From: Prosopocoilus inquinatus
Taxonomy: Eukaryota > Arthropoda > Insecta > Coleoptera > Lucanidae
Direction: 5' to 3'
Assembly: GCA_036172665.1 (NCBI GenBank)
Contig: CM069875.1
Coordinates: 11,922,001 to 11,986,000, forward strand
DNA: 64,000 nucleotides
This document shows positions 8,976-55,124 of this stretch, in pieces. Under the pieces are notes generated by a model, which was not told the origin of the DNA, did no database searches, and saw nothing but the letters and a program-made list of their open reading frames with translations. A program made the translations under genes and the position numbers. How positions within the stretch are numbered: the first letter of the stretch is position 1; every line of letters starts with the position of its first letter.

Positions 8976-10094
8976 TGTAATTTCTTATCTAGATTTATTT
9001 TTAATAAATATAATAAATTTTTATTATAAAAAATTTTGTTGCAAGTCGTTTTTGATGCGGTGAATCCCTCGATCATCCTTAAGCTTTTAATTCTAATTTA
9101 AAGGTTAAATCAAAAATTCGCTGTTTCATTTTAAATGCAAATAACTGTTTTATTTTTAAAGATATAAAAAAATGAAAGCTTTTTTGTTTGATTTTTGTGT
9201 GATTTTTAACATACATTATGGTTCCTTAATTAACAATTAAGTCACATGAAAACTTCATAATAGCCGAACTACGAACTCAATTTTTTATATGTGTGTCTCA
9301 AAAATCTTATAATCTAGACGCCCTAGAGTTCATAAGAGATAATTCGAATTGTAATATTTGACTATTTGAAAACTGAACGTCTAATATTCAAACTATGCAA
9401 AAAATTAAAAATCTTGGGCTTTATTGGATCCACCATAACAATTATTGGTTAATATTCATCTTACTTTTTACTGGTCAGAGGCGTCTGAATTATAAGACTT
9501 GCGAGACATGTTAGTTTATATTGTTTGAAATTGTTTATGTAATTTATAACGAGTGTTCGATTGAAAAGTTTGATTTTTTATGAAAGAAAGTCGGGAAAAT
9601 AAGCAACTGCGCTAACAGGCTTGCCTAAATCAAACATAAAAAATACGGTTTTTAAATAAGTTTACAATTTCCGAAATCTTTCTTTATTTAAAGAATTGTG
9701 TAAATCTTCATAGTTTTAAACATTAGCATTAACATGTAGATGTTCATTTGAGAACTAGCGGATGCAGTGTAAATTTTTATCGTATTTTGCCTTCGGGACA
9801 TAAAATTCAATAATATTTGAGAAAGCTGGGTTTTCCTGTGGACTATTACAAATTTTTAAGTGAATGAAGAAATCATAATTTAGTTAAAAGTTGAATAAAA
9901 AGTGTCCTTATCATGTTTAGATATCGGAAATATCTATAGAATGCCCTCGAAGATGAGACACTTTGTACAGTACAGTTTGGACGAATTTGCAAATGTTCAA
10001 ACACTGCGAATTGCGAGACACAGCGGACTAGCATTGTTCCGCTAAGTAATGTCAAAATGACAGGAGACGAAAAATTGAAACAGCATGCCATTAC
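8976..10094. other. unassigned AT-rich DNA with a small ribozyme-repeat fragment
   Basis: At about 9028-9080 a short stretch matches the part of the 312-bp hammerhead repeat that lies beside helix I (AATTTTGTTGCAAGTCGTTT), without the ribozyme itself. The rest has no recognised gene. The 72-codon minus-strand frame at 9873-10,091 has no family resemblance. Confidence 0.4.
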
Positions 10095-10652: not shown

Positions 10653-12301
10653 TACTGGGTGTATCAGAAATACGTGTGTTGATTTTAACACAGAGTGCAG
10701 TTAGCTAAGTGAAATATTTTTTCTATTTGACTTTTTTTTATTTAACGCTTTCTAAATTGATTTAAAATTAAGAACATGTTACATACTAAAATCTATACCC
10801 GCCTGTGGTTAAGAGAGGAAAATTTCTGTTGTGATAGAAACGAAAAAGTCAAATAAAAACGTCAATCGTTGTAATGCCACATTTATGAAAATTTAACAGA
10901 AATTGCATTTATAACGTGCTGGGTTTTGAGTAAGTCTTAAACACAACGAATAACAGTAATTCTAACAATATTTTAAAAGAGTGCAAATCTTTTTATTACA
11001 GTAAGTGTTCAAAATGGCCAGCATTACTGTTTAAACAACATTGTAAACGTCTAATAAGAGTATCTTTTACTCGCTCAAGCATTGGTTGATTATTCCTTAT
11101 TACCGTGGCAGCGTTTTCAGTGCGGTTCAATAGTTTCAATTGGGACTGCATATACTAGTTGCTTCATGTAGCCCCACAGAGAAAAATCGCACGGGTTAAG
11201 ATCGGGCGACCTGGCGGGCCACAAAATTGGACCGTGAGTTGGAATCCACCGTTCCTGAAAATTATTGTTCAACCAATCTCTAACTACCTAGGGAGCACCA
11301 TCCTGCAAATACCACAAATTTGCTCTAGTTACTAAAGGCACATCCTCTAGCAAATTAAAAAGAACTTCTCTTAAAAAATGTAAATATCCTTCACCATTGA
11401 GACGAGGTGGTAAAACATGGGGTCCAATTAGTTGACAATTTAAAATACCAGCCCACACGTTTACAGAAAATTCTTGCTGAAAATTATGCACTCTTATGGC
11501 ATGCGGGTTTTCATCAGCCCATACATGAGTACTGTGAACATTAAATATTCCTTCTCTAGTAAATCCTGTTTCGTCAGTTGTCAGCAAATAATTTAAAAAA
11601 TTTGGTTGCCTATTAATTTTTTCAACCATCCATTGGCAAAATGTGCGTCTACGAGCATGATCGCCAGGTTGTAAAAACTGAACACGTTGCACATGGTATG
11701 GATATAACTGCTGGACTTTTAAAATTCGCCAAACTGACGAATGCGATATGCCATACTGAAGTGCGAGTCTCCGGGTATTTGTACCAGGTCGAGTTGCAAT
11801 AGCATCCAAAATGTTCTCCTCAACATTCAGTACACGACGAGGGCGAGGTCTGCCCCGATTTTGGGCTTGGGGTTTAAATGAACCATGATCCCGGAGATGT
11901 TGTGCAGTTGACTGAAATGTGTGCCTGTTAGGCAAAATGCGATTAGGGAAATGAATCGCATACAATCTACGTGTCTCTACAGCATTTCCATCAGCTTTAC
12001 CATACATCATGACGATGTCCGTTAACTCTTGATTAGAAAAATCGTGCATATTTAAGAATGACAACTATCTTGACACTTAATTGATCCAATTGTAAACGCT
12101 ACAACAGTGGTGAAAGTTACCATGGTTTTTCGAAACCAGTTCCAGTTCAAACACCAAACGACTCGATTGTTCAAAAATAGGGGTAAAAAAATTATGAAAA
12201 AAAATTACGATTTTTTCAAAATGCCATAATAAAAAATTGTTCAACGTGGCGAGATCTCCTATGGTTTAAAATTAACACACGTATTTCTGTTACACGCAGT
12301 A
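10653..12301 (-). mobile_element. Tc1/mariner-superfamily transposon, 1649 bp
   Basis: TA dinucleotides (10,651-10,652 and 12,302-12,303) flank inverted ends TACTGGGTGTATCAGAAATA and TACTGCGTGTAACAGAAATA, about 38 bp in all. The interior is one transposase pseudogene on the minus strand. Ends and TA duplication are well preserved while the gene is broken, so the copy could only move if supplied with transposase. Confidence 0.9.
10996..12064 (-). pseudogene. Tc1-like (DDE) transposase, broken
   Basis: This would cut and paste the surrounding transposon. The first 258 codons (12,064-11,291) are open: an N-terminal helix-turn-helix region, a basic GRPRPRR linker (about residues 71-77), a second helix-turn-helix (SHSSVWRIL, about 108-116), the first catalytic Asp in TTDETGF, and the second in YLQDGAP. 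An in-frame TAG follows, where the usual His and a few neighbours appear to be deleted. The same frame then continues VVRDWLNNNFQERW and reaches the third Asp in SPDLNPCDF. A frameshift near PIETIE precedes a good C-terminus (AGHFEHLL then stop at 10,996). One stop, one small deletion and one frameshift make it non-functional. Family assignment is firm; the exact subfamily is not. Confidence 0.88.
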
Positions 12302-14045: not shown

Positions 14046-14157
14046 CATACATTTAAACCTTTCCAAATTTCTAATACCTAATCTTCAGTAAGTAAAAGAT
14101 GTCTTTCTTGTTTAACACAAAATGGTGGTCATATGGAGGATCTTTATTAATATTTTT

Positions 14158-14310
14158 AGACAGATAAAACAGCGACACCCTATGATCGCTTTTTGACCTG
14201 ACATTGCAATAGGATAGACAAACTGAAGCGGATTTGCTCCTAATAAGTCCCCCATGCAAGGCGTCCATGCTTGCTGTCAAAGCATTATGAAAGCTTTTTG
14301 CAACAAAATT
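14158..14310 (-). repeat. fragment of the 312-bp hammerhead repeat
   Basis: The words AACAGCGACACCCTATGATCG, CCTGACATTGCAATAGGATA and AGTCCCCCATGCAAGGCG match the body of the 312-bp repeats at 40 and 50 kb. The ribozyme portion is absent. Confidence 0.85.
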
Positions 14311-15076
14311 TTTTAATATTTTTATAGTTTTGTTTACTGCTTTTAGTTGGTTTCTTTTGCTTCTATTATATTTTTTTTCGTTGTTTCACTGTTAATAGGT
14401 TAATAGGTATAGATTTAATTCGTTGTGAATTTAGTTGGTTTATATTATTGTTCAAAAAGTTCATATTTAAAATTGGTTATGCTTATGCGTTTATTACTGT
14501 TTAAAATTGTTTCTAGCTCTTTAGTGATAATTCTGTCGGTATACTAATTTATCATTTATTAAAAGACTACAGTTTAATGAATATTTTACTGTTTTACATG
14601 AATTAAGGCCTACTATAATTCGCATAAATGTAGAAAATAGATTAATTTGCTTACAGCTTGCCATTTTCGCAAATAATACCAACCATATTATATATTTTTG
14701 AAAAGCTTGAAAAATACTCTTTTTAACGATGTAAAAGCCAACTATGACTTCCATTAAAAAAAAACAAAGGTTGGGTTGGTATCTCGACTATTATGAACTT
14801 CTCATGTAATTTAATTAAGAAATCATGATCCACGTTAAAAGTCGAATAAAAAGTGTAATTATCATTTTTAAAAACTTTAAAAATAAATAAGTTATTTGCA
14901 TTTGAAGATTTGGTGAATATTTCGTTTTTCGACTGTATCACGAAAACAGCAAATTTTTGATTTAACCATCGAAATTGGCATGAAAAGTTGACCCAATATT
15001 GCTTGCTTAGTTTTTTTCTATTTTTATTATTAACGGAGATACCTATACAATACCATCGAAAATGGGACACCCTGTA

Positions 15077-29918: not shown

Positions 29919-32100
29919 TAAAGTCCGGATTTATATGTGCTAAAAAAGTGGAAAATAAGTTTTTTTTATGCGATTAAAATGGATCAAAATATGGATATTA
30001 TATGCGATAAAAATTTTATTTTACTTATACATACTTTAGAATAATAAAAACATAAATTGTTTCATATAAGTAATTTTAACACTTAACACTTAAGTAGTAG
30101 GATTACAAAATATAATCAACAGTTGATTTAAATTATTTGGGGTAAAATTTTGTCGTCTGTCTGTCAAAATATTTTTATAAGAGGAAAACGAACGCTCGAC
30201 ATCGCATGAAGTAATGGGCGCAAATTTCATGGATGCTACATCTTTGGGGTCCATGTCCAAATCCTCTTCACTTTGACCTTTTAAAACTAAACAGATTTTC
30301 CTCATTTTATTGTAGTCAGGATTACGTAATAGAACCTTGTCTAATTTTGCCATTAACTTCTCTCCTATCTCCCCTGGAATTGATTTTACACTTTCAATTG
30401 CATCATCGACCACTTCAAAAGAATCTAATAGAGCCGTCTGGGATGATTCCAACTTTTTAATAGTGGATATTAAAACCGAAAAATGAGTTTTAATGAATGT
30501 TAATTGATTCCCGATGTTTGTGTTCGACATGCATTCCTTACAAATTCTTAAAGCCGCTGAATTGGAATCATCCAATTCTAAGAAAATTTCCTTTAATTGT
30601 TTAAAGTTATCTGCGTAAAAATTTGCTGCTTCAAGCCACGTACCCCATCTCGTAATTATTGGTTCTGGTGGTAATGGCAGGTCAGCAGCTAATTCTTTAT
30701 AGTGTTGTATACGCAGTGGGGCTTTAAGAAACGCCTTTTTTCCGTTATTGATCAACTTATTTACTGTTGGGTATTCTAGTCGCACCAATTCAGCGAGCCT
30801 ATTCATTGCGTGAGCCATACAAGTGAAGTGCATCAGATTTGGGTAAAACACCTGTAAAGCCTGTCCTGCTTTTATCATGTAGGCTGCTGCATCAGACACC
30901 ATTAGTAATATATTTTCCGATTTAACTTGATTAGGTGCATATAAAAGTGTCAAGCTGTCGTTAATATAACGTGCGATCGTTGAATGATTTGTTTTTTCCA
31001 AAACTGCACTATTTACCAAATAAGATATTGGTGCAACTGTGTTGCTTAATACTCCTGCTAACATATCTGCTACATAACGACCGCAGGCATCTGTCGTTTC
31101 ATCAACTACTATATAAATATTGTTGTCGCTAAGCTTCTCTCTTATTTTCTTCATCCGTTGCTGGTAGCATATACTTAGATAGTTTTTCCGCAAAGTCGAT
31201 TCATTTGGAATATGACGATTGCAATATTTTTCCAAAAAAGTTCGAAAACTTGCTTGTTCAAGTTTATGCCAAGGAATGTTTGACTCTGCCATAGCACTGC
31301 ACAAGTCTAAAAAGAATTCATTTCCTGTGTCACTGCCCTGTGAGTTACTGGCTGTTGAAGAAATAAAAGACTGCTTAAAGTTAGACACACATCTTTTCTC
31401 CGACTCCTTATGGAGGTTTGTAGCCAAATGTTGATCAATCTGGTACTTTTGGTCTGACGACACCTTAAAATATTGTCAAAATGAAAATGTGATTTTTAAG
31501 AGAATTTGTAAGGTATCTACCTGTTTTGAGCATGCGTTGCAAAAAATAACTTTTCCATCTGTAGTTAGATGTTTAAATGCTTTAATCCATTTTTTCAATA
31601 GCTCGGATCGAGAGGATGCTACTTTCGGCATTTTGAAAAGATAAGCACTGAATTTATTTCGTCTTTAAATTAAATAAGAAAATAACAACTAATTCGCGTT
31701 GATAAATACACTAGTCACTAGTCACACACATTCACGGAGTTCTTATCTCAAACTGAAATGCAAAACATAAGTGCAAAATGCAAGTGCAAGTCGCTACAGA
31801 TTCCCAGAAAATCACATTCCGGGAAATCGTAAAATAAAGTGGCCAGACGTTGAGAAGAATAAATTACTTCTTGGAAAAGCTGCAGACTTGAATATTGACC
31901 GTATATGGAATTATAATGTTATTTATATCAATATATGGATAAATAAATAAATATGCGCTAAAAGTCTAAAATATTAAGTTATATGCGAAATAAAACTACC
32001 ATTTTTGGGCTTCTCTAATCGACAAACATATAAATACAAAACGCCAAGTTTAGGTATGTTAGCGTAAAAAACTTGTAAAAACTTATAAATCCGGTCTCTA
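29919..32100 (-). mobile_element. structurally complete hAT transposon, 2182 bp
   Basis: The 8-bp target duplication CTCATGAG stands at 29,911-29,918 and 32,101-32,108. The terminal inverted repeats are TAAAGTCCGGATTTATA (left) and TAGAGACCGGATTTATA (right, reverse complement), 15 of 17 matching. A two-exon transposase with no frame break fills the minus strand. The words TATGCGATTAAAA, TATGCGATAAAAA, ATGCGCTAAAA and ATATGCGAAATAAAA lie near both ends and may be transposase-binding sites. Perfect target repeats and an intact gene suggest recent insertion. Confidence 0.93.
30090..31631 (-). CDS. hAT transposase with N-terminal BED-type zinc finger, two exons
   Basis: This enzyme would excise and reinsert the surrounding element. 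Exon 1 (31,631-31,521) encodes 37 residues from ATG and ends with CNACSKQ at a donor GTAGAT. A 57-base intron (31,520-31,464) ends in TTTTAAG. Exon 2 (31,463-30,090) begins with GTG, read as Val inside the protein. The spliced product is 494 residues. Joining the exons completes a C-x2-C ... H-x4-H finger (CNAC, then HLATNLH), the BED-type DNA-binding domain. The first catalytic Asp is probably in VVDETTD and the second in LLMVSDAAAYM; C-x2-H (CMAH) follows. CDVERSFSSYKNILTDRR near the C-terminus is the hAT dimerisation domain. Unspliced read-through meets a stop in the intron, so splicing is required. The length is usual for short hAT enzymes. Confidence 0.9.
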
Positions 32101-33461: not shown

Positions 33462-34890
33462 TAAATAAATAAATAAATATCGACTTTATTTCTGTTGGCG
33501 GAGTTCAGCAAATTTGCTGCTCGACCACTCAACCAATATCCCAATATACAGAAATAAATAAAATAATACAACGCATGTAATAAAATATTGTCGTTGTGAA
33601 ACCAGAAAGTTCATAGAAAGAAAAAGAAAAAATTAAAATTAATTCAAGTTGTGTTATTTAATTTAATCTGATTGGTCACTGTCAATTTCTTTTAAAAGCT
33701 ACTGTGGTTTGGTTACGTAATTCTTTAGGAAGCGAGTTGTACAGCTTAGGCCTGACAAAAGCAAAAGAACGTTCGAAAGAGGAGGTGGAGTGAATTGGAA
33801 TATCGAGTAAACTTGTGCGTCTTAAGTTAATTTCATGTAATTGACTGCGAGGTATCAACAAAGCCTTCAGATAATTCGGCGTGGAATTTGAAATTATTTT
33901 ATAAAAAAAATTATTAATTATTTTAACCACAGAACGTCAGATAATTTGGAGCTCACATGATCACGTATCTTTAAGTCGAAAATAAACCTTAAACAAGAAT
34001 TCTGAATTCGCTGAGTCAAAAATAAACCTTAAACGAGAATTCTGAATTCTCTGAATCCTAGTTACAGAAGATAGATCTAGACATGAACCGTATACAGCAT
34101 CACAATAGTTAAATGTTGATAAAACTAAAGTTTCACATAATTGTGTGCGGAGTTGTTTAGTCAAGAAATGTTTATTAGCATGCAAGCTTTTTAAGATACC
34201 GAAATATTTCTGCACTAGCTTGTTAATGTGAGATATAAACCGTAATTTTTCATCAAAGATAAGACCAAGATTGTTAACACACTTGGAGAAGGAAATCTTA
34301 TTACCATCAACAAAAATTTCCATGCCATCTACGACCTTTTGTCGATCTTTGCCGTTACCAAAAACAATAGCCTGGGATTTGTTGTGATTTACGTGCAGTG
34401 AATGCATTTTAGATATAGTAAGTAAAAGTTCCAGATTATCATTTATCATTTACGTCAACGTGGCTGCAAAATCAGAAAAGTGAAAATGAAGGTAGATTTG
34501 CGTGTCATTTGCGTAACAGTGCCAATTGCAATTTAGATTAGAATGCAAATTAGCAGTATAAATTATAAAAAGGAGAGGAACAATAATTGAGCCTTGAGGC
34601 GTACCTGAAAGGATAGGCTGATGAGTTGATGAGACATTATTGACAGTAACAGCTTGAGACCGGTCGCGCAACTCAGAAGATCCATGGCATCATCAGACAG
34701 TCCAAAATAATGAAGCTTTGCGGCTATTAGTTTGTGATTAATGGTATCAAAGGCCTTAGAGTAGTCGAGTAATACCAAAACAGATAGTTCTCCTTTATCA
34801 GTTGCATTTAAGATATCATTGGTGATTTTCAACAGGGCTGTAGTAGTACTAAAACCATAGACCATTTCAAGACATACATCCATTCTTAAT
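33462..34890 (-). mobile_element. 5'-truncated LINE (jockey/CR1/L2-like), 3' part
   Basis: The minus strand holds the reverse transcriptase fingers-palm region through the 3' end. The 3' tail, read on the minus strand, is GAAATAAAGTCGATATTT followed by ATTT repeats (33,464-33,480), a simple-repeat tail usual in this LINE group. The 5' end is cut off within the reverse transcriptase, as in most LINE copies. Confidence 0.85.
33682..34883 (-). pseudogene. LINE reverse transcriptase, broken
   Basis: From 34,883 downward: VLLDYSKAFDTINHKL, the palm motif with the first catalytic Asp; a frameshift near 34,665; SGTPQGSIIVPLLF, the PQG motif; CYANDTQIY, where the usual YADD is YAND, so one catalytic Asp is lost; a stop at 34,450; then a long open thumb/C-terminal stretch (34,449-33,961) ending in a stop; and after ten codons a further open stretch with FERSFAFVRPKLYNSLP, the usual C-terminus. 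A tandem duplication of about 40 bp (33,977-34,055) lies in the coding region. It is non-functional. The family is clear; the exact clade is not. Confidence 0.88.
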
Positions 34891-35187
34891 CCTATGTGTT
34901 GTCAAGCGTGTCGAATGTGAATTCGCGAAACATTTTTCAAGAATCTAATATTTACCTTCTTAGTTCCTCCTTATTATTTATTTCAATGTTAGTCACTGTT
35001 TTAATTTCCAAAACCCCAAGCCTACTTTATTCTGCTTAAATGTTGCAGGATAGTCCCGATCAGGGGACCTATTCTTGACATGTGAATTTTTGTGCTCGCA
35101 TATGAAATATGCGAGTGCGAAAAGCGTGTAAGCTTTAGATAAGTTATTCTAGACTATTCGAAAATTTCATTCGAAAATAAATGATAT
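34891..35187. other. spacer, nothing recognised
   Basis: AT-rich sequence between the LINE truncation point and a MITE; it may include further LINE remnants too short to identify. Confidence 0.35.
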
Positions 35188-39180: not shown

Positions 39181-40185
39181 AATTGTCAAGTAATAAACAA
39201 ATTGTTTTAATAATCTGAGACAGACGTTTTGTGTTCCACCTTTATTAAAAATTTATTTGGACGTACGGTATACTAATGTTTTATTATTGTCAAAATTAAA
39301 ATCTGCATTGGTGCAACTATATTAAAAATATTGTAGTTCTTGACCGTTGATAATTATTATGTAACAGGAACACCAATTCTTAGTTCGGACAGTAAAAATC
39401 GGCACTGATCCGTGTTTTCTTGCTTAATTTGCCGCTTTTTCTAGATCATTTGACCTAACAAACTTCACCTAGCAATCAAGACTTTAAAATTTTACCGACC
39501 CTGTAAGATTTCTTTTCTTTTGCTAAGCTATACTAAATATTTTTTTTAGTCAACCAGTGAATTTTCTTGTTTCATTTATTTATATTCTATTCAATTTAAT
39601 AATCCTGATATTCAAATAGTCTAAATTTGACTAAATAAGCTTCAAATAATGTTGTTTAAAGAATTTAAAAAATCACTGAGAGTCTCATTTTAAACTCAAA
39701 ACTTGGTATGAAGCTAGAGTCCACATTTTAAGAAAATTTGTGTTTACCGTTAAATGTTCAACGATTTTCAAAAGAAATGGACCCTCACTTCATGTTGACA
39801 AGTTTTTCGTTATTCCCTCTGTAAAAGAGTTTTGAGAAACACTACGTTTTGAAGTTATCTCATTTTATGACATTTTAATTTCACACATTTTAACAGAACG
39901 TGCTGATTTTTGTTGAGCAAGTTCTAAGAATTGGCTTTCATTTTACAAATAAAAAATAATTACAATTAAATGCTTTCATTACCCACCTTAGATTTTGCAG
40001 CTTTAATGAAATAAATAAAAAAATGTTAAAAGCTGCAGTCTATCGTGGTATTACTGTATTTTAAGAAATATTTACTTTTATCTTTAATTAGTTTTATTTT
40101 GTTTGTACTTATTTACGAGTTTAATTGTATTGCAAAAGAAACAAAACAAAATAATAATTATAAATAAATAATAAAAGTTATCGTA
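39181..40185. other. AT-rich DNA, nothing recognised
   Basis: No repeat ends or coding resemblance were seen. Confidence 0.4.
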
Positions 40186-40374
40186 CGATGTCGCTGTTTT
40201 ATCTATTCATCACTATAAATAAATACGTTAATTAAATCTGATAAACAGTACTAATACCTTAATACGTATTATTGTTTTAAAAATTGTTGTAATAAAGATA
40301 CGGTGGACTTTCGGTCCGATTATAATAATTTTTTGAAAAAATTGTTGCAAATCGTTTTTTATTGCAGTGAAAAT

Positions 40375-40440
40375 CTCGAGCAGCCTCTGTACAGCTGTTT
40401 CAGCCCTGCTTGGGGCTTCAGCAGCAGAGACGTAGCTCGA
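40375..40440 (-). ncRNA. hammerhead motif with core deletion
   Basis: On the minus strand helix I, helix II (AGCCC/GGGCT), GAAAC and GTA are present, but the core reads CTGA followed directly by helix II, so NGA is deleted. It should be inactive. Confidence 0.75.
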
Positions 40441-40685
40441 CATTCCCACTGCACACCAAGAACGACTTGTCCAATTTATTCGCAAATGCGATGTAACAGT
40501 GATGAACAGATAAAACAGCGACATCTTACGATCACTTTTTGACCTGACATTGCAGTAGGATAGACAAATTGAAGCGGATTTGCTCCTAATAAGTCCCCCA
40601 TGCAAGGCGGCCATGCTTGCTGTCAAAGCATAATGAAAGTTTTAAAAAAAATCGTTGCAAATCGTTTCTGATTGCAGTGAAAACC

Positions 40686-40752
40686 TCGAGCAGCCTCTGT
40701 ACAGCTGTTTCAGTCTTGCTTGTGGGGCTTCATCAGCAGAGACGTAGCTCGA
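40686..40752 (-). ncRNA. hammerhead motif with canonical core, weakened helix II
   Basis: The core is CTGATGA (40,736-40,730, minus), with GAAAC and triplet GTA. Helix I has TCGAGC/GCTCGA outside and TCTG/CAGA inside. Helix II is AGCCC/AGACT with two mismatches around an enlarged loop. The core is intact but folding is doubtful. Confidence 0.7.
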
Positions 40753-41419
40753 CATTCCCACTGCACACCAAAAACGACTTGTCCAATTTATTCGCAAATG
40801 CGATGTAATAGTGATGAACAGATAAAACAGCGACATCTTACGATCACTTTTTGACCTGACATTGCAGTAGGATAGACAAATTGAAGCGTATTTGCTCCTA
40901 ATAAGTCCCCCATGCAAGGCGGCCATGCTTGCTGTCAAAGCATAATGAAAGTTTAAAAGAAAAATTGTTGCAAATCGTTTCTGATTGCAGTGAAAACCTC
41001 GAGCAGCCTAAATAATGTGTAATAATTTGTCAAGTTAAGTATCAAGAGAAACGTGTTATCAAGTAAACCGAAACAAAAACGAGAAATGTAAATGTTTGCT
41101 TAATATCAACCAGCTTTTTTTTTATTTAGGCACTCTTTATAATAAATTCATTTTAATCTTTTAATAAGAACATGAAAATCACGCAATCACTTGGCGTTTC
41201 ATTACATAGTACGACAAAATGAGGATTCAAAATTCTGAATTTGGATTTTTCAATGGAAATAGTAAATTTGGGATAAAGCAAAGGTATACATCCAACGGGA
41301 TTTTTCTGTGTTAGGTCAATTATGGATTTTATCTAGGTCGAATGTTTAGAGAATTTGGCGTGTTAGGAGGGAAAATTTTAATCAGTAACTACTAGTAAAT
41401 ATGTAACTTTGGAGTCATG

Positions 41420-49720: not shown

Positions 49721-50220
49721 AACTACTTCTCATCTACCTAGAGACACAATTCTTCTATTTGTAATGAATATGATACGCTAGCTTTTGAGACTCATAAAAA
49801 ACGAAAATCCAATACATTTATATGAGAAAATGTCCTTATGGTAAATCCGTTACTGTAATATAGATGGCGATGAAATCGGCAAACTGATGACAAGCTGTGT
49901 TAGCTCCGCCTTGAGTAATAAAAATAAGTGAACACAGTTTAGAAACGTTTTCTCTGATGTCAGATTTTGGTACCCGAGATCAAATCGATTTTAAGCCACA
50001 AATTCGCTTATAAAAACTAGCAACTCAATTTTCTTTTCTTTATTTTCTTCTAAGATATGAGATGAATTAAAATTTTGGACGAGCGTTTTTTTCTAATAGA
50101 ATTATTTGTCCTTCGCCTTATAAGTTTCGGTTTATATAAACCCCAGCAAAAGACTTCAAAATTATGAATTTAACAGTGTATTAGAGTGTAATGTAATCAC
50201 AGCAAAGGTTAATTAGGTAT
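49721..50220. other. AT-rich DNA, nothing recognised
   Basis: No repeat or gene was seen before the 312-bp array. Confidence 0.4.
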
Positions 50221-50263
50221 TAGAAAAATTTTGTGCAAATCGTTTTTGATTGCAGTGAGAACC

Positions 50264-50328
50264 TCGAGCAGCCTCTGGACAGCTGTTTCAGCCCTGCTTG
50301 GGGCTTCTTCAGCAGAAACGTAGCTCGA
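50264..50328 (-). ncRNA. hammerhead ribozyme, intact motif
   Basis: The minus strand has core CTGAAGA (50,312-50,306), helix II AGCCC/GGGCT with loop CAAGCA, GAAAC (50,289-50,285), helix III AC/GT with loop AGCT (the eight bases ACAGCTGT are also a palindrome that could pair between two molecules), triplet GTC (50,280-50,278) and helix I TCTG/CAGA plus outer TCGAGC/GCTCGA with an internal loop. Predicted cleavage is between 50,278 and 50,277. All conserved core positions of the hammerhead consensus are met. Confidence 0.82.
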
Positions 50329-50575
50329 CATTCCCACTGCAGACCAAAAACGACTTGCCCAATTTATTCGCAAATGCGATGTAAGAATGATGAACATATA
50401 AAATAGCGACATCTTACTATCGCTTTTTGACCTAACATTGCAGTAGGATAGACAAATTGAAGCGGGATTTGCTCCTAATGAGTCCCCCATGCAAGGCGGC
50501 CATGCTTGCTGTCAAAGCATAATGAAAGATTTTAGAAAAATTTTGTGCAAATCGTTTTTGATTGCAGTGAGAACC

Positions 50576-50640
50576 TCGAGCAGCCTCTGGACAGCTGTTT
50601 CAGCCCTGCTTGGAGCTTCTTCAGCAGAAACGTAGCTCGA
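50576..50640 (-). ncRNA. hammerhead ribozyme, intact motif (unit 2)
   Basis: Same as the motif 312 bp to the left, with one change in helix II (AGCTC/GGGCT), which keeps pairing through a U-G. Cleavage is predicted after the GTC at 50,592-50,590. Confidence 0.8.
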
Positions 50641-50887
50641 CATTCCCACTGCAGACCAAAAACGACTTGCCCAATTTATTCGCAAATGCGGTGTAAGAAT
50701 GATGAACATATAAAATAGCGACATCTTACTATCGCTTTTTGACCTAACATTGCAGTAGGATAGACAAATTGAAGCGGGATTTGCTCCTAATGAGTCCCCC
50801 ATGCAAGGCGGCCATGCTTGCTGTCAAAGCATAATGAAAGATTTTAGAAAAATTTTGTGCAAATCGTTTTTGATTGCAGTGAGAACC

Positions 50888-50943
50888 TCGAGCAGCCTCT
50901 GGACAGCTGTTTCAGCCCTGCTTGGGGCTTCTTCAGCAGAAAC
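50888..50943 (-). ncRNA. hammerhead motif truncated at the inversion junction
   Basis: Core, helix II, GAAAC and GTC are present, but the outer 5' strand of helix I is replaced at 50,944 by inverted unit sequence. Inner helix I (TCTG/CAGA) remains, so it could fold only as a minimal form. Confidence 0.75.
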
Positions 50944-51101
50944 GGGACTCATTAGGAGCAAATCTCGCTTCAATTTGTCTATCCTACTGCAACGTTAGGT
51001 CAAAAAGCGATAGTAAGATGTCGCTATTTTATATGTTCATCATTCTTACATCGCATTTGCGAATAAATTGGACAAGTCGTTTTTGGTCTGCAGTGGGAAT
51101 G

Positions 51102-51166
51102 TCGAGCTACGTTTCTGCTGAAGAAGCCCCAAGCAGGGCTGAAACAGCTGTCCAGAGGCTGCTCGA
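51102..51166 (+). ncRNA. hammerhead ribozyme, intact motif (inverted unit)
   Basis: Helix I strands lie at 51,102-51,117 and 51,153-51,166; core CTGAAGA 51,118-51,124; helix II 51,125-51,140; GAAAC 51,141-51,145; triplet GTC 51,150-51,152 with predicted cleavage after 51,152. The internal loop in helix I and loop CAAGCA in helix II are placed where natural hammerheads make their activating loop-loop contact. Confidence 0.82.
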
Positions 51167-51350
51167 GGTTCTCACTGCAATCAAAAACGATTTGCACAAA
51201 ATTTTTCTAAAATCTTTCATTATGCTTTGACAGCAAGCATGGCCGCCTTGCATGGGGGACTCATTAGGAGCAAATCCCGCTTCAATTTGTCTATCCTGCT
51301 GCAATGTTAGGTCAAAAAGCGATAGTAAGATGTCGCTATTTTATATGTTA

Positions 51351-51613
51351 ATTAGGTAGTTAAATAGTTGTAATAATATGGATACATTAGTAAATATACA
51401 AGCAGTTTTAAATTCCGTGAGCATGGCTTAACCACAGATTCCCGACAATAAATAAGACGGTTTAATTAAATTTATCTATATACAAAATTGCTCCGTTATG
51501 CCGGTATTCTTCTTCAAAGTTCTTGAAGCCAAAGTTAATTTTTCTTATAACAAAGGAACGCCTGAACCGATATTGTATTAAAAAACTTTTTGTGGTTAAA
51601 AAATTCAACATAA
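51351..51613. other. spacer, nothing recognised
   Basis: AT-rich sequence between the ribozyme array and the mariner element. Confidence 0.4.
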
Positions 51614-51615
51614 TA

Positions 51616-52911
51616 CGTGGGCTGCTGGAAAAGTTTCTGGAAACGGTATGAAAAAACGCATATGAAATTTGGTAAACGGTATCATTGTTTTTCGAAGTAT
51701 TCGCCTTTGACGTCAATATACTTTTGCATACGCTCGAACCAATTTCTAAAGCACGTTTTCCACTCTAAAGATGGTACCTCAGAAACCAGTGTCCGGAATG
51801 TTTCAACCGCTGCTTCAGCCGACGAAAATCGCTCACCACGCATTTTATTTTTGATATTTGGGAACAAAAAGAAACCATTAGGTGATAAATCAGGTGAATA
51901 TGGACAATGAGTCATTAATTCAACATTTTTGTTGGACAAAAAATCAACTGTTTGACGGGCTGAGTGAGAGCTGGCGTTATCATGATGGAGAATAATTCGT
52001 TGATTTCGATTGTTTCTTCTTATTTGATCGATGACTTCCGGCAAATAAATTGTAGTATACCAATCAGCATTCACGGTTTTTCGATCCTCTCAAGACACGG
52101 TTGCTACATGTCCAGTTAAACCAAAGAAACAAGCAATCATTTGCTTCGCACCACTGCGTGAACGGACAACTTTTGTTGGTTTTGGTTCATTTTGAAATAC
52201 TCAAACGGTAGATTGTTGTTTACTTTCTGGCTCGTACGAATAGATCCACGTTTCGTCACAAGTAACGATGTTATAAACTAAATTTGAACGACCTCCATTG
52301 AATTTCTTGAACACTTCTTCGCACCATTTGACATGACCCTGCTTTTGCGTTTCTGTTAAATTGTGTGGGATCCAACGACTGCAAAGCTTTCGTACGTTCA
52401 AATGATCATGCAAAATGTGGTGTATTGCTTTCATGTCAATGCGTAAGGATGCTTGAATTTCACGGTATGTCTCATGTCGATCTCGCTCAAGCATTTCATG
52501 CACAGCGTCTACATTAGTGGCAATAACAGATGTTGATGGACGACCTTCACGAAATTCGTCACTGAGAGAGGTACGTTCACGCTGGAATTCGGCAAAGCAA
52601 TTATAAACACTGCTCTTTAATGGTGCTTCATCTCCAAAAGCCAAATGAAGCCGATCGAGGGATTGCTTCGGCGTTAGACCACATTTAAAATCGTAAAAGA
52701 TCATGGCACGAAAATTTTCACGCGAGATTTCCATATTTACACAAAATTACTTTTTCTCAAATGCTGTACAAACAAAACTAGTTCACTTAGATAGGAACTG
52801 TCAATTGAATGAATTTTAGGCGAAAAACGTCAAATTTTTCAAATATGACAGTTGATAAACGCTAACAATTCTAGATCTACTAGATTCCGGAAAATTTTCC
52901 AGCAGCCCACG
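51616..52911 (-). mobile_element. mariner transposon, mellifera-type, 1296 bp
   Basis: TA flanks both sides (51,614-51,615 and 52,912-52,913). The inverted ends are CGTGGGCTGCTGGAAAAGTT and (reverse complement) CGTGGGCTGCTGGAAAATTT, continuing to about 27 bp. Length and single-gene layout are those of mariner. The gene is on the minus strand and inactive. Confidence 0.93.
51682..52734 (-). pseudogene. mariner transposase, two stops and a lost catalytic Asp
   Basis: The same frame runs from 52,734 to 51,682 for 350 codons, the usual mariner length. It starts MEISRENFRAMIFYDF and ends GEYFEKQ. The first helix-turn-helix (about residues 25-55) and the second (ASLRIDMKAIHHIL, about 111-124) are present. 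Catalytic motifs are TCDETWIY (first Asp kept), HHDNASSH (second Asp kept) and, 34 residues later, SPNGFF, where the third catalytic Asp of the DD34D triad is Gly. In-frame TGA codons replace Trp (52,201-52,203) and interrupt VS*EDR near 52,088. The wording matches the mellifera subfamily. There is no frameshift, so decay is moderate. Confidence 0.93.
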
Positions 52912-54554: not shown

Positions 54555-55096
54555 TAATTATCGGCATAGCCTCTAAACTAGTGATGCGACGAGTCGAGTA
54601 GACTCGCTATCAGACTCGATTCTCAAAGGTACTCATTGTACTCGAGTAACTAATTCTGTGAACCCGAGTCAGCGGTATTCGAGTCGACTCGAGTACGATA
54701 CAAGTACTCGAGTATCGACTTTAGAATTTGTAGACTCGTCATCAGACTCGAGTCCCAAAGGTTCTACTCGAGTAACTATTGCAGTGACACCGAGTCAGTG
54801 AAACTCGAGTCAACTCGAGTTCGATTCAAGTAATTCGAGTACCGAATTTAGAATTAAATAGCGCTGCAACGAGTCGAGTAGACTCGATGTCAGACTGGAT
54901 TTTATTGGATTCTCTTTAAAGAGCCTCCTCATCAGTTGGTAACGAGTGAATGAGTACCGAGTTTAGAATTGAGATTATGCGTGTAGGCAATAAGCGTTAA
55001 CGTTTGACAAGTTTCATTCGTTTTAGAAGTACTATGCTTTTGCTAAAACAGTCGACTGCCGCAATAACTTACTGTGACAGTCAGACGCTTGATATC

Positions 55097-55124
55097 GGGG
55101 GGGGGGGGGGGGGGGGGGGGGGGG
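55097..55124. repeat. homopolymer of 28 G
   Basis: An uninterrupted G-run in otherwise AT-rich DNA, inside the hAT element. The length may be unreliable in the assembly. Confidence 0.8.

Follow-up and report, generated by a model that had tools for sequence, protein, structure and literature searches.

A retrozyme-like hammerhead repeat inserted head-to-head between 12-bp target site duplications in Prosopocoilus inquinatus

The non-LTR retrozymes of corals, mussels and the axolotl are dispersed, multimeric repeats of about 170–400 nt with a type I hammerhead ribozyme (HHR), low GC content, a stable sense fold and target site duplications (TSDs) of more than 4 bp (PMC7229834), and all of these characteristics are shared by a 312-bp unit in Prosopocoilus inquinatus. 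Both LINEs and Penelope-like elements (PLEs) have been named as candidate movers of animal retrozymes (PMC7229834), a choice on which the anatomy of the insertion described below bears. Head-to-head insertion, a fixed 12-bp TSD and preferred sites at which the reverse transcriptase (RT) starts are not described for those retrozymes in the part of that paper drawn on, which sets the present family apart by description. Compared with the satellite hammerheads of newts and the axolotl, the unit resembles HHR_Amex2 in its helix III, where two pairs close a palindromic loop of four bases, but host and unit are different, and the dimer dependence that was measured there is predicted here (PMC7229834). 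Among insect repeats, pDo500 of Dolichopoda cave crickets likewise contains a constrained HHR; it is described as a satellite, however, and its double hammerhead pairs stems I and II, not III, between molecules (PMC2837043). PLEs share with the insertion the combination of head-to-head inverted and direct repeats, a short TSD and an AT-rich target, and with the unit an HHR inside the repeat and two RT start sites, but they encode an RT and a GIY-YIG endonuclease themselves, and their HHRs are minimal (PMC3846280, PMC11167929). The likeness to published retrozymes and to the newt, schistosome and cave cricket repeats is one of description. Among the matches listed in open-licence literature, no paper was evidently about the 312-bp unit or head-to-head retrozymes. 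In viral contigs, a close DNA pattern of the unit found no stretch, and none of the 53 loci found there with a loose HHR pattern passed a helix descriptor somewhat looser than the one used on the P. inquinatus DNA.

Architecture of the main insertion

The window, meaning the whole 64,000-bp stretch that was analyzed, contains at 50220–51346 a single insertion of 1,127 bp, copy A. Positions within the 312-bp unit are written p and are counted along the plus strand from 50220 (p=1); ribozyme-sense RNA reads towards falling p and cDNA towards rising p. The left arm (50220–50944, 725 bp, HHR sense on the minus strand) comprises two full units and 101 bp of a third, and is joined head-to-head at 50944 to an inverted right arm of 403 bp or 1.3 units (50944–51346, HHR sense on the plus strand), with one G common to both. 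A sequence-only reading of this DNA had claimed a 312-bp period and near-identical units, and both were upheld: TRF gives period 312 at 50220–50944 with 2.3 copies and 99% matches, and the two full direct units (50220–50531 and 50532–50843) are 99.4% identical, the third ending at 50944. The simple tandem array of the same reading had to be given up. The stretch 50944–51352 is complementary to 50390–50798 (98% over 409 nt), and the 12-mer GTTAATTAGGTA, which occurs exactly twice in the window, lies flush with both insertion ends as left TSD (50208–50219) and right TSD (51347–51358), matching at 12/12 positions, so that the whole is one head-to-head insertion.

The exact 312-bp spacing and the near-identity of the units are what a satellite array would show, produced by unequal crossing-over and later inverted, with no insertion at all. 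Such an origin is highly improbable, given the flush 12-bp TSD around both arms and the TSDs that short single pieces elsewhere in the window also have. Copy A is instead likely to be a non-autonomous animal retrozyme of the non-LTR kind that inserted recently, primed from both strands. The earlier description of the repeat as retrozyme-like loses its array, but the type I HHR, the 312-nt unit, 43% GC, a stable sense fold, dispersal and TSDs are all in line with published animal retrozymes (PMC7229834), and retrozyme-like is the best reading of the family. At 312 bp and 43.3% GC (the window as a whole has 32.5%), the unit falls within the size and composition of retrozymes, which are about 170–400 bp with GC below 45–50%. 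A plant LTR retrozyme, which would have a type III HHR and a 4-bp TSD, was rejected; here the HHR is type I and the TSD 12 bp.

The unit is non-coding. No RT or GIY-YIG frame was found in it, the longest frame having about 100–115 codons, and the three frames tested had no Pfam match. A search for protein relatives had one candidate and no match at E up to 1, and the possibility that an open frame of about 103 codons, running through the unit, is coding was rejected: substitutions between the young and old arrays have no third-position excess (8/23, 7/24). Lacking an enzyme frame, the unit would therefore be mobilized in trans.

Six positions vary within copy A, of which five are private to one lap and one (p=139) separates the arms, a pattern that fits two circles without proving them. 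The arms join at p=101 and p=267, which are non-matching positions, and self-primed snap-back was rejected for copy A. An Rfam match to MIR821 at 50673–51069 (128.9 bits, gathering score 249) is best put down to the long inverted arms and treated as spurious. The arms of copy A (at 50944) and of copy C (at 2051, described below) both stop at p=101, just beyond inner helix I, where the enzyme may pause.

Hammerhead motifs and predicted folding

Three HHR cores lie on the minus strand, at 50278–50312 (C3 at 50312, C17 at 50278), 50590–50624 (C3 at 50624, with one C-G of helix II changed to U-G) and 50902–50936, and one lies on the plus strand at 51118–51152 (C3 at 51118, C17 at 51152). The sequence-only reading had claimed three intact hammerheads with a conserved core of CTGAAGA, GAA, the A-T pair and GTC. 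Those three (C3 at 51118 on the plus strand, 50312 and 50624 on the minus strand) were found as claimed, and the number of intact cores comes to four: that with C3 at 50936 (minus) is complete in its core, in helices II and III and in the inner part of helix I, the outer part being lost at the junction. All four motifs contain helix II along with these core elements, and in three of them helix I continues beyond the internal loop into a long outer helix. Cleavage points after 51152 and after 50278, as previously proposed, follow from the sequence as predicted positions. A descriptor of the core and three helices matched four times in the window, always within copy A; in order-1 Markov windows the same descriptor matched 0/100 and 3/1000, all three in one of four batches.

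The earlier reading had named a sub-threshold covariance score as a result that would refute it, and formally this is the outcome: the Rfam search of the 64 kb gave no match at the gathering score. On a 121-base stretch, RF00163 aligned over model positions 1–45 of 45 (51112–51158) with 23.8 bits against a cut-off of 34 and an E of 4.8e-4, which when rescaled arithmetically to 64 kb becomes about 0.25. The corresponding 1.4-kb search did not list RF00163; HH9 scored 14.5 bits there (E 3.9). Helical pairing can also be counted directly. In five motifs (three young and two old, leaving out the junction motif and that of copy C), 196 of 200 pair cells are standard against 71–94 of 200 in slid controls, a comparison biased in its own favor by a structure derived from one of the counted sequences. 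The four misses are all in the old array, and no pair was altered on both sides among the five motifs.

Helix III, ACAGCUGU, consists of two base pairs capped by a palindromic loop. Folded singly, a motif favors a competing fold, at −56.0 kcal/mol versus −51.1 kcal/mol with the core held open (a gap of 4.9), and in the latter helix III does not form. Two motifs folded together adopt the HHR fold at −115.9 kcal/mol, their shared helix III then having 8 pairs. The folding models thus predict that the ribozyme perhaps acts as a dimer through helix III. In axolotl HHRs whose helix III is weak, cleavage is much better in the dimer (PMC7229834), and a palindromic stem III has been noted in Aedes repeats (PMC3088659). 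Dimer action nevertheless stays a prediction, because most invertebrate retrozyme HHRs are reported to be efficient cleavers alone (PMC7229834). The 312-nt sense RNA as a whole is far more stable than 100 shuffles (z −7.64), with z −3.65 for the opposite strand.

Family members, target site duplications and start ends

A profile search of the window found five further pieces, B to F. Copy B (40332–41009, minus) has 2.2 older units, about 91% like copy A, and an imperfect TSD; one of its HHR cores is broken (CTGCTGA) and the other HHR has two broken helix II pairs. Copy C (2025–2099) consists of two short head-to-head pieces, of which 49 bp hold an HHR that aligns end to end with RF00163 (25.0 bits at 2053–2099, cut-off 34); a search for its TSD found none, the best match being 7/12. 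This older HHR (plus strand), with the loop CAAAUA and CUGACGA, is nearer the Rfam type I consensus than those of the young copies. Copy D (9030–9084) is decayed and has a TSD of 10/12. Copy E (14159–14312, 154 bp) is enclosed by the 12-bp TSD TTAATATTTTTA at 14147–14158 and 14313–14324, and has a left arm and a probable inverted right arm at 14299–14312; this right arm is 14 nt matching inverted D, of which 8 are self-complementary, so about 6 nt are informative. Copy F (40171–40213, 43 bp) lies between 12-bp TSDs TATAAATAAATA at 40159–40170 and 40214–40225. Copies E and C are probably head-to-head like copy A. With A and B multimeric and four more pieces within 64 kb, the family is dispersed and includes multimers.

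Exact 12-bp TSDs thus flank three of the six pieces (A, E and F); a 12/12 match has P 0.0003 for random pairs, and the borders of E and F were adjusted to abut their duplications once these had been noticed, the homology borders being 0–7 bases away. Imperfect TSDs were found for D (10/12, P 0.015) and B (9/12, P 0.09, or 10/12 with wider slack).

The cDNA start ends are at p=1 and 177 in A (174 counting three shared bases), 1 in B, 6 in D, 174 (left arm) and 6 (right arm) in E, and 168 in F. These seven ends of five pieces fall in two arcs of at most 9 nt, with P 1.6e-5 if they are uniform and independent, although ends that belong to a single piece are perhaps linked; for five uniform ends, the chance of falling in two 10-nt arcs is P 0.0028. 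When the copy C ends (181 and 53) are added, arcs of 13 nt take in 8 of the 9 (P 7e-5), the start at p=53 being off both sites. This mapping covers six pieces, and several end positions were read by hand from alignments. The start sites are AT-rich and lie where the unit is predicted to be more open, at 0.63–0.77 versus an average of 0.34–0.36 (four units). This is a weak test, since 11–14 of about 312 rotations are equally open; it used positions 1, 1, 5, 5, 168, 174 and 177, in which 5 stands for the refined value of 6.

In unit coordinates, copies A and E end at the same two places. Identical terminal sequences (p 1–6 and p 174–177) would also be found in a DNA transposon or fold-back element whose termini are two inward-pointing sequences. 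That explanation is scarcely credible, the two termini not being inverted repeats of each other and copies B, D and F having only one terminus, in F with an exact TSD.

The homology of copies B and D stops at p=55 (9079 in D), 3 nt short of the expected cut at 58/59, as if copying had run off a ribozyme-cut end; between the homology end and the presumed TSD lie 7 unmatched bases in B and 5 in D. These stops bear on whether the family is a relic, in which the ribozyme no longer cuts, the repeats are passengers and the motif is kept merely by the youth of the main copy. The sub-threshold Rfam scores and the competing fold of single motifs would fit a relic, as would arms that pass through cleavage sites uncut and the damage to both copy B motifs; in addition, insertion by an Anolis PLE in vitro does not need HHR activity (PMC11167929). 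Set against this are the four intact cores of copy A and the p=55 ends, and we judge a relic unlikely.

A possible route of mobilization

A route that ties these features together can be outlined as follows. The units would be transcribed, and their type I hammerheads would cut after GUC, perhaps best when paired via the palindromic helix III. Circles or uncut multimers would then serve as templates. The endonuclease and RT of another element would make a cut in AT-rich DNA, staggered by 12 bp, and each strand's 3' end would serve as a primer at one of two AT-rich parts of the unit where copying preferably starts. The enzyme could go beyond one lap, as in the 2.3 and 1.3 laps of copy A, and joining of the two cDNAs at their far ends would give a head-to-head element. 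With both ends of the staggered cut acting as primers, the two outward sense 3' ends, the inner junction, the unequal arms and the TSD would all be explained.

For the enzyme, a PLE is somewhat favored over a LINE, and the anatomy of copy A tilts the choice in that direction. The protein of an Anolis PLE cuts and extends both strands, starting internally at either of two sites with an ATT motif (PMC11167929). PLEs of A. vaga are often head-to-head, with direct repeats plus an inverted one and TSDs of 8–10 bp (PMC3846280). Direct and head-to-head inverted repeats within one TSD are found in copy A, a likeness of insertion form only. The authors of the A. vaga study prefer self-priming on an antisense template (PMC3846280), which is not favored for copy A because its junction is offset. 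No PLE was seen in the window frames tested.

A LINE-type enzyme with twin priming could have inserted the same retrozyme, and we hold this as a tentative alternative. Twin priming is known for inverted L1 copies, and head-to-head joins inside one TSD are also expected from it. A LINE-like RT piece is present in the window (RVT_1 20.9 bits at 34566–34901, below the cut-off of 29.6). The TSDs of LINEs vary in length, however, and in all three exact cases here the TSD is 12 bp; moreover, no poly(A) or simple tail was seen at the start ends of the family pieces, and both start sites are in use, on either strand. In favor of a LINE, the 15-bp TSDs of Nematostella retrozymes have been likened to those of LINEs (PMC4918200).

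The fullest version of the PLE reading is that animal retrozyme RNA offers two fixed RT start sites in open AT-rich loops, and that a PLE-like enzyme, supplied in trans, makes a cut staggered by 12 bp, starts copying from each of its ends and travels round the RNA circle from both, head-to-head multimers with 12-bp TSDs being the signature of mobilization. We put this forward as a doubtful but possible account, and place it no higher because copies B and D are without significant or exact TSDs. The Rfam scores below cut-off, the competing fold of the lone motif and copy C, off-site and without a TSD, count against the retrozyme route as a whole. With the two start ends, the TSDs and the junction of the cDNAs all preserved, copy A shows which measurements would decide the mover.

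Several other repeats and transposon remnants share the window. Close downstream of copy A, 51682–52746 (minus) hold a mariner-like transposase (HTH_48, DDE_3) whose coding sequence is broken into two or more frames. The LINE-like RT piece extends over 33961–34901 (minus). A frame with DUF4817 and weak Tc3-type transposase domains lies at 11288–12064 (minus), and a hAT-like frame of 461 codons with DUF659 at 30090–31475 (minus). The latter is 81% like a contig protein, and among the best 120 of 613 matches its best named ones are insect proteins at 46–60% identity, including those of the beetles Brassicogethes and Acanthoscelides and of aphids. These matches make an insect host likely, although one transposon is not enough to name it. 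Also present are a 149-bp tandem repeat of 2.2 copies (1352–1683), a CTCGAGT-rich repeat of 126 bp that occurs twice (54598–54855) and a run of 28 Gs (55097–55124).
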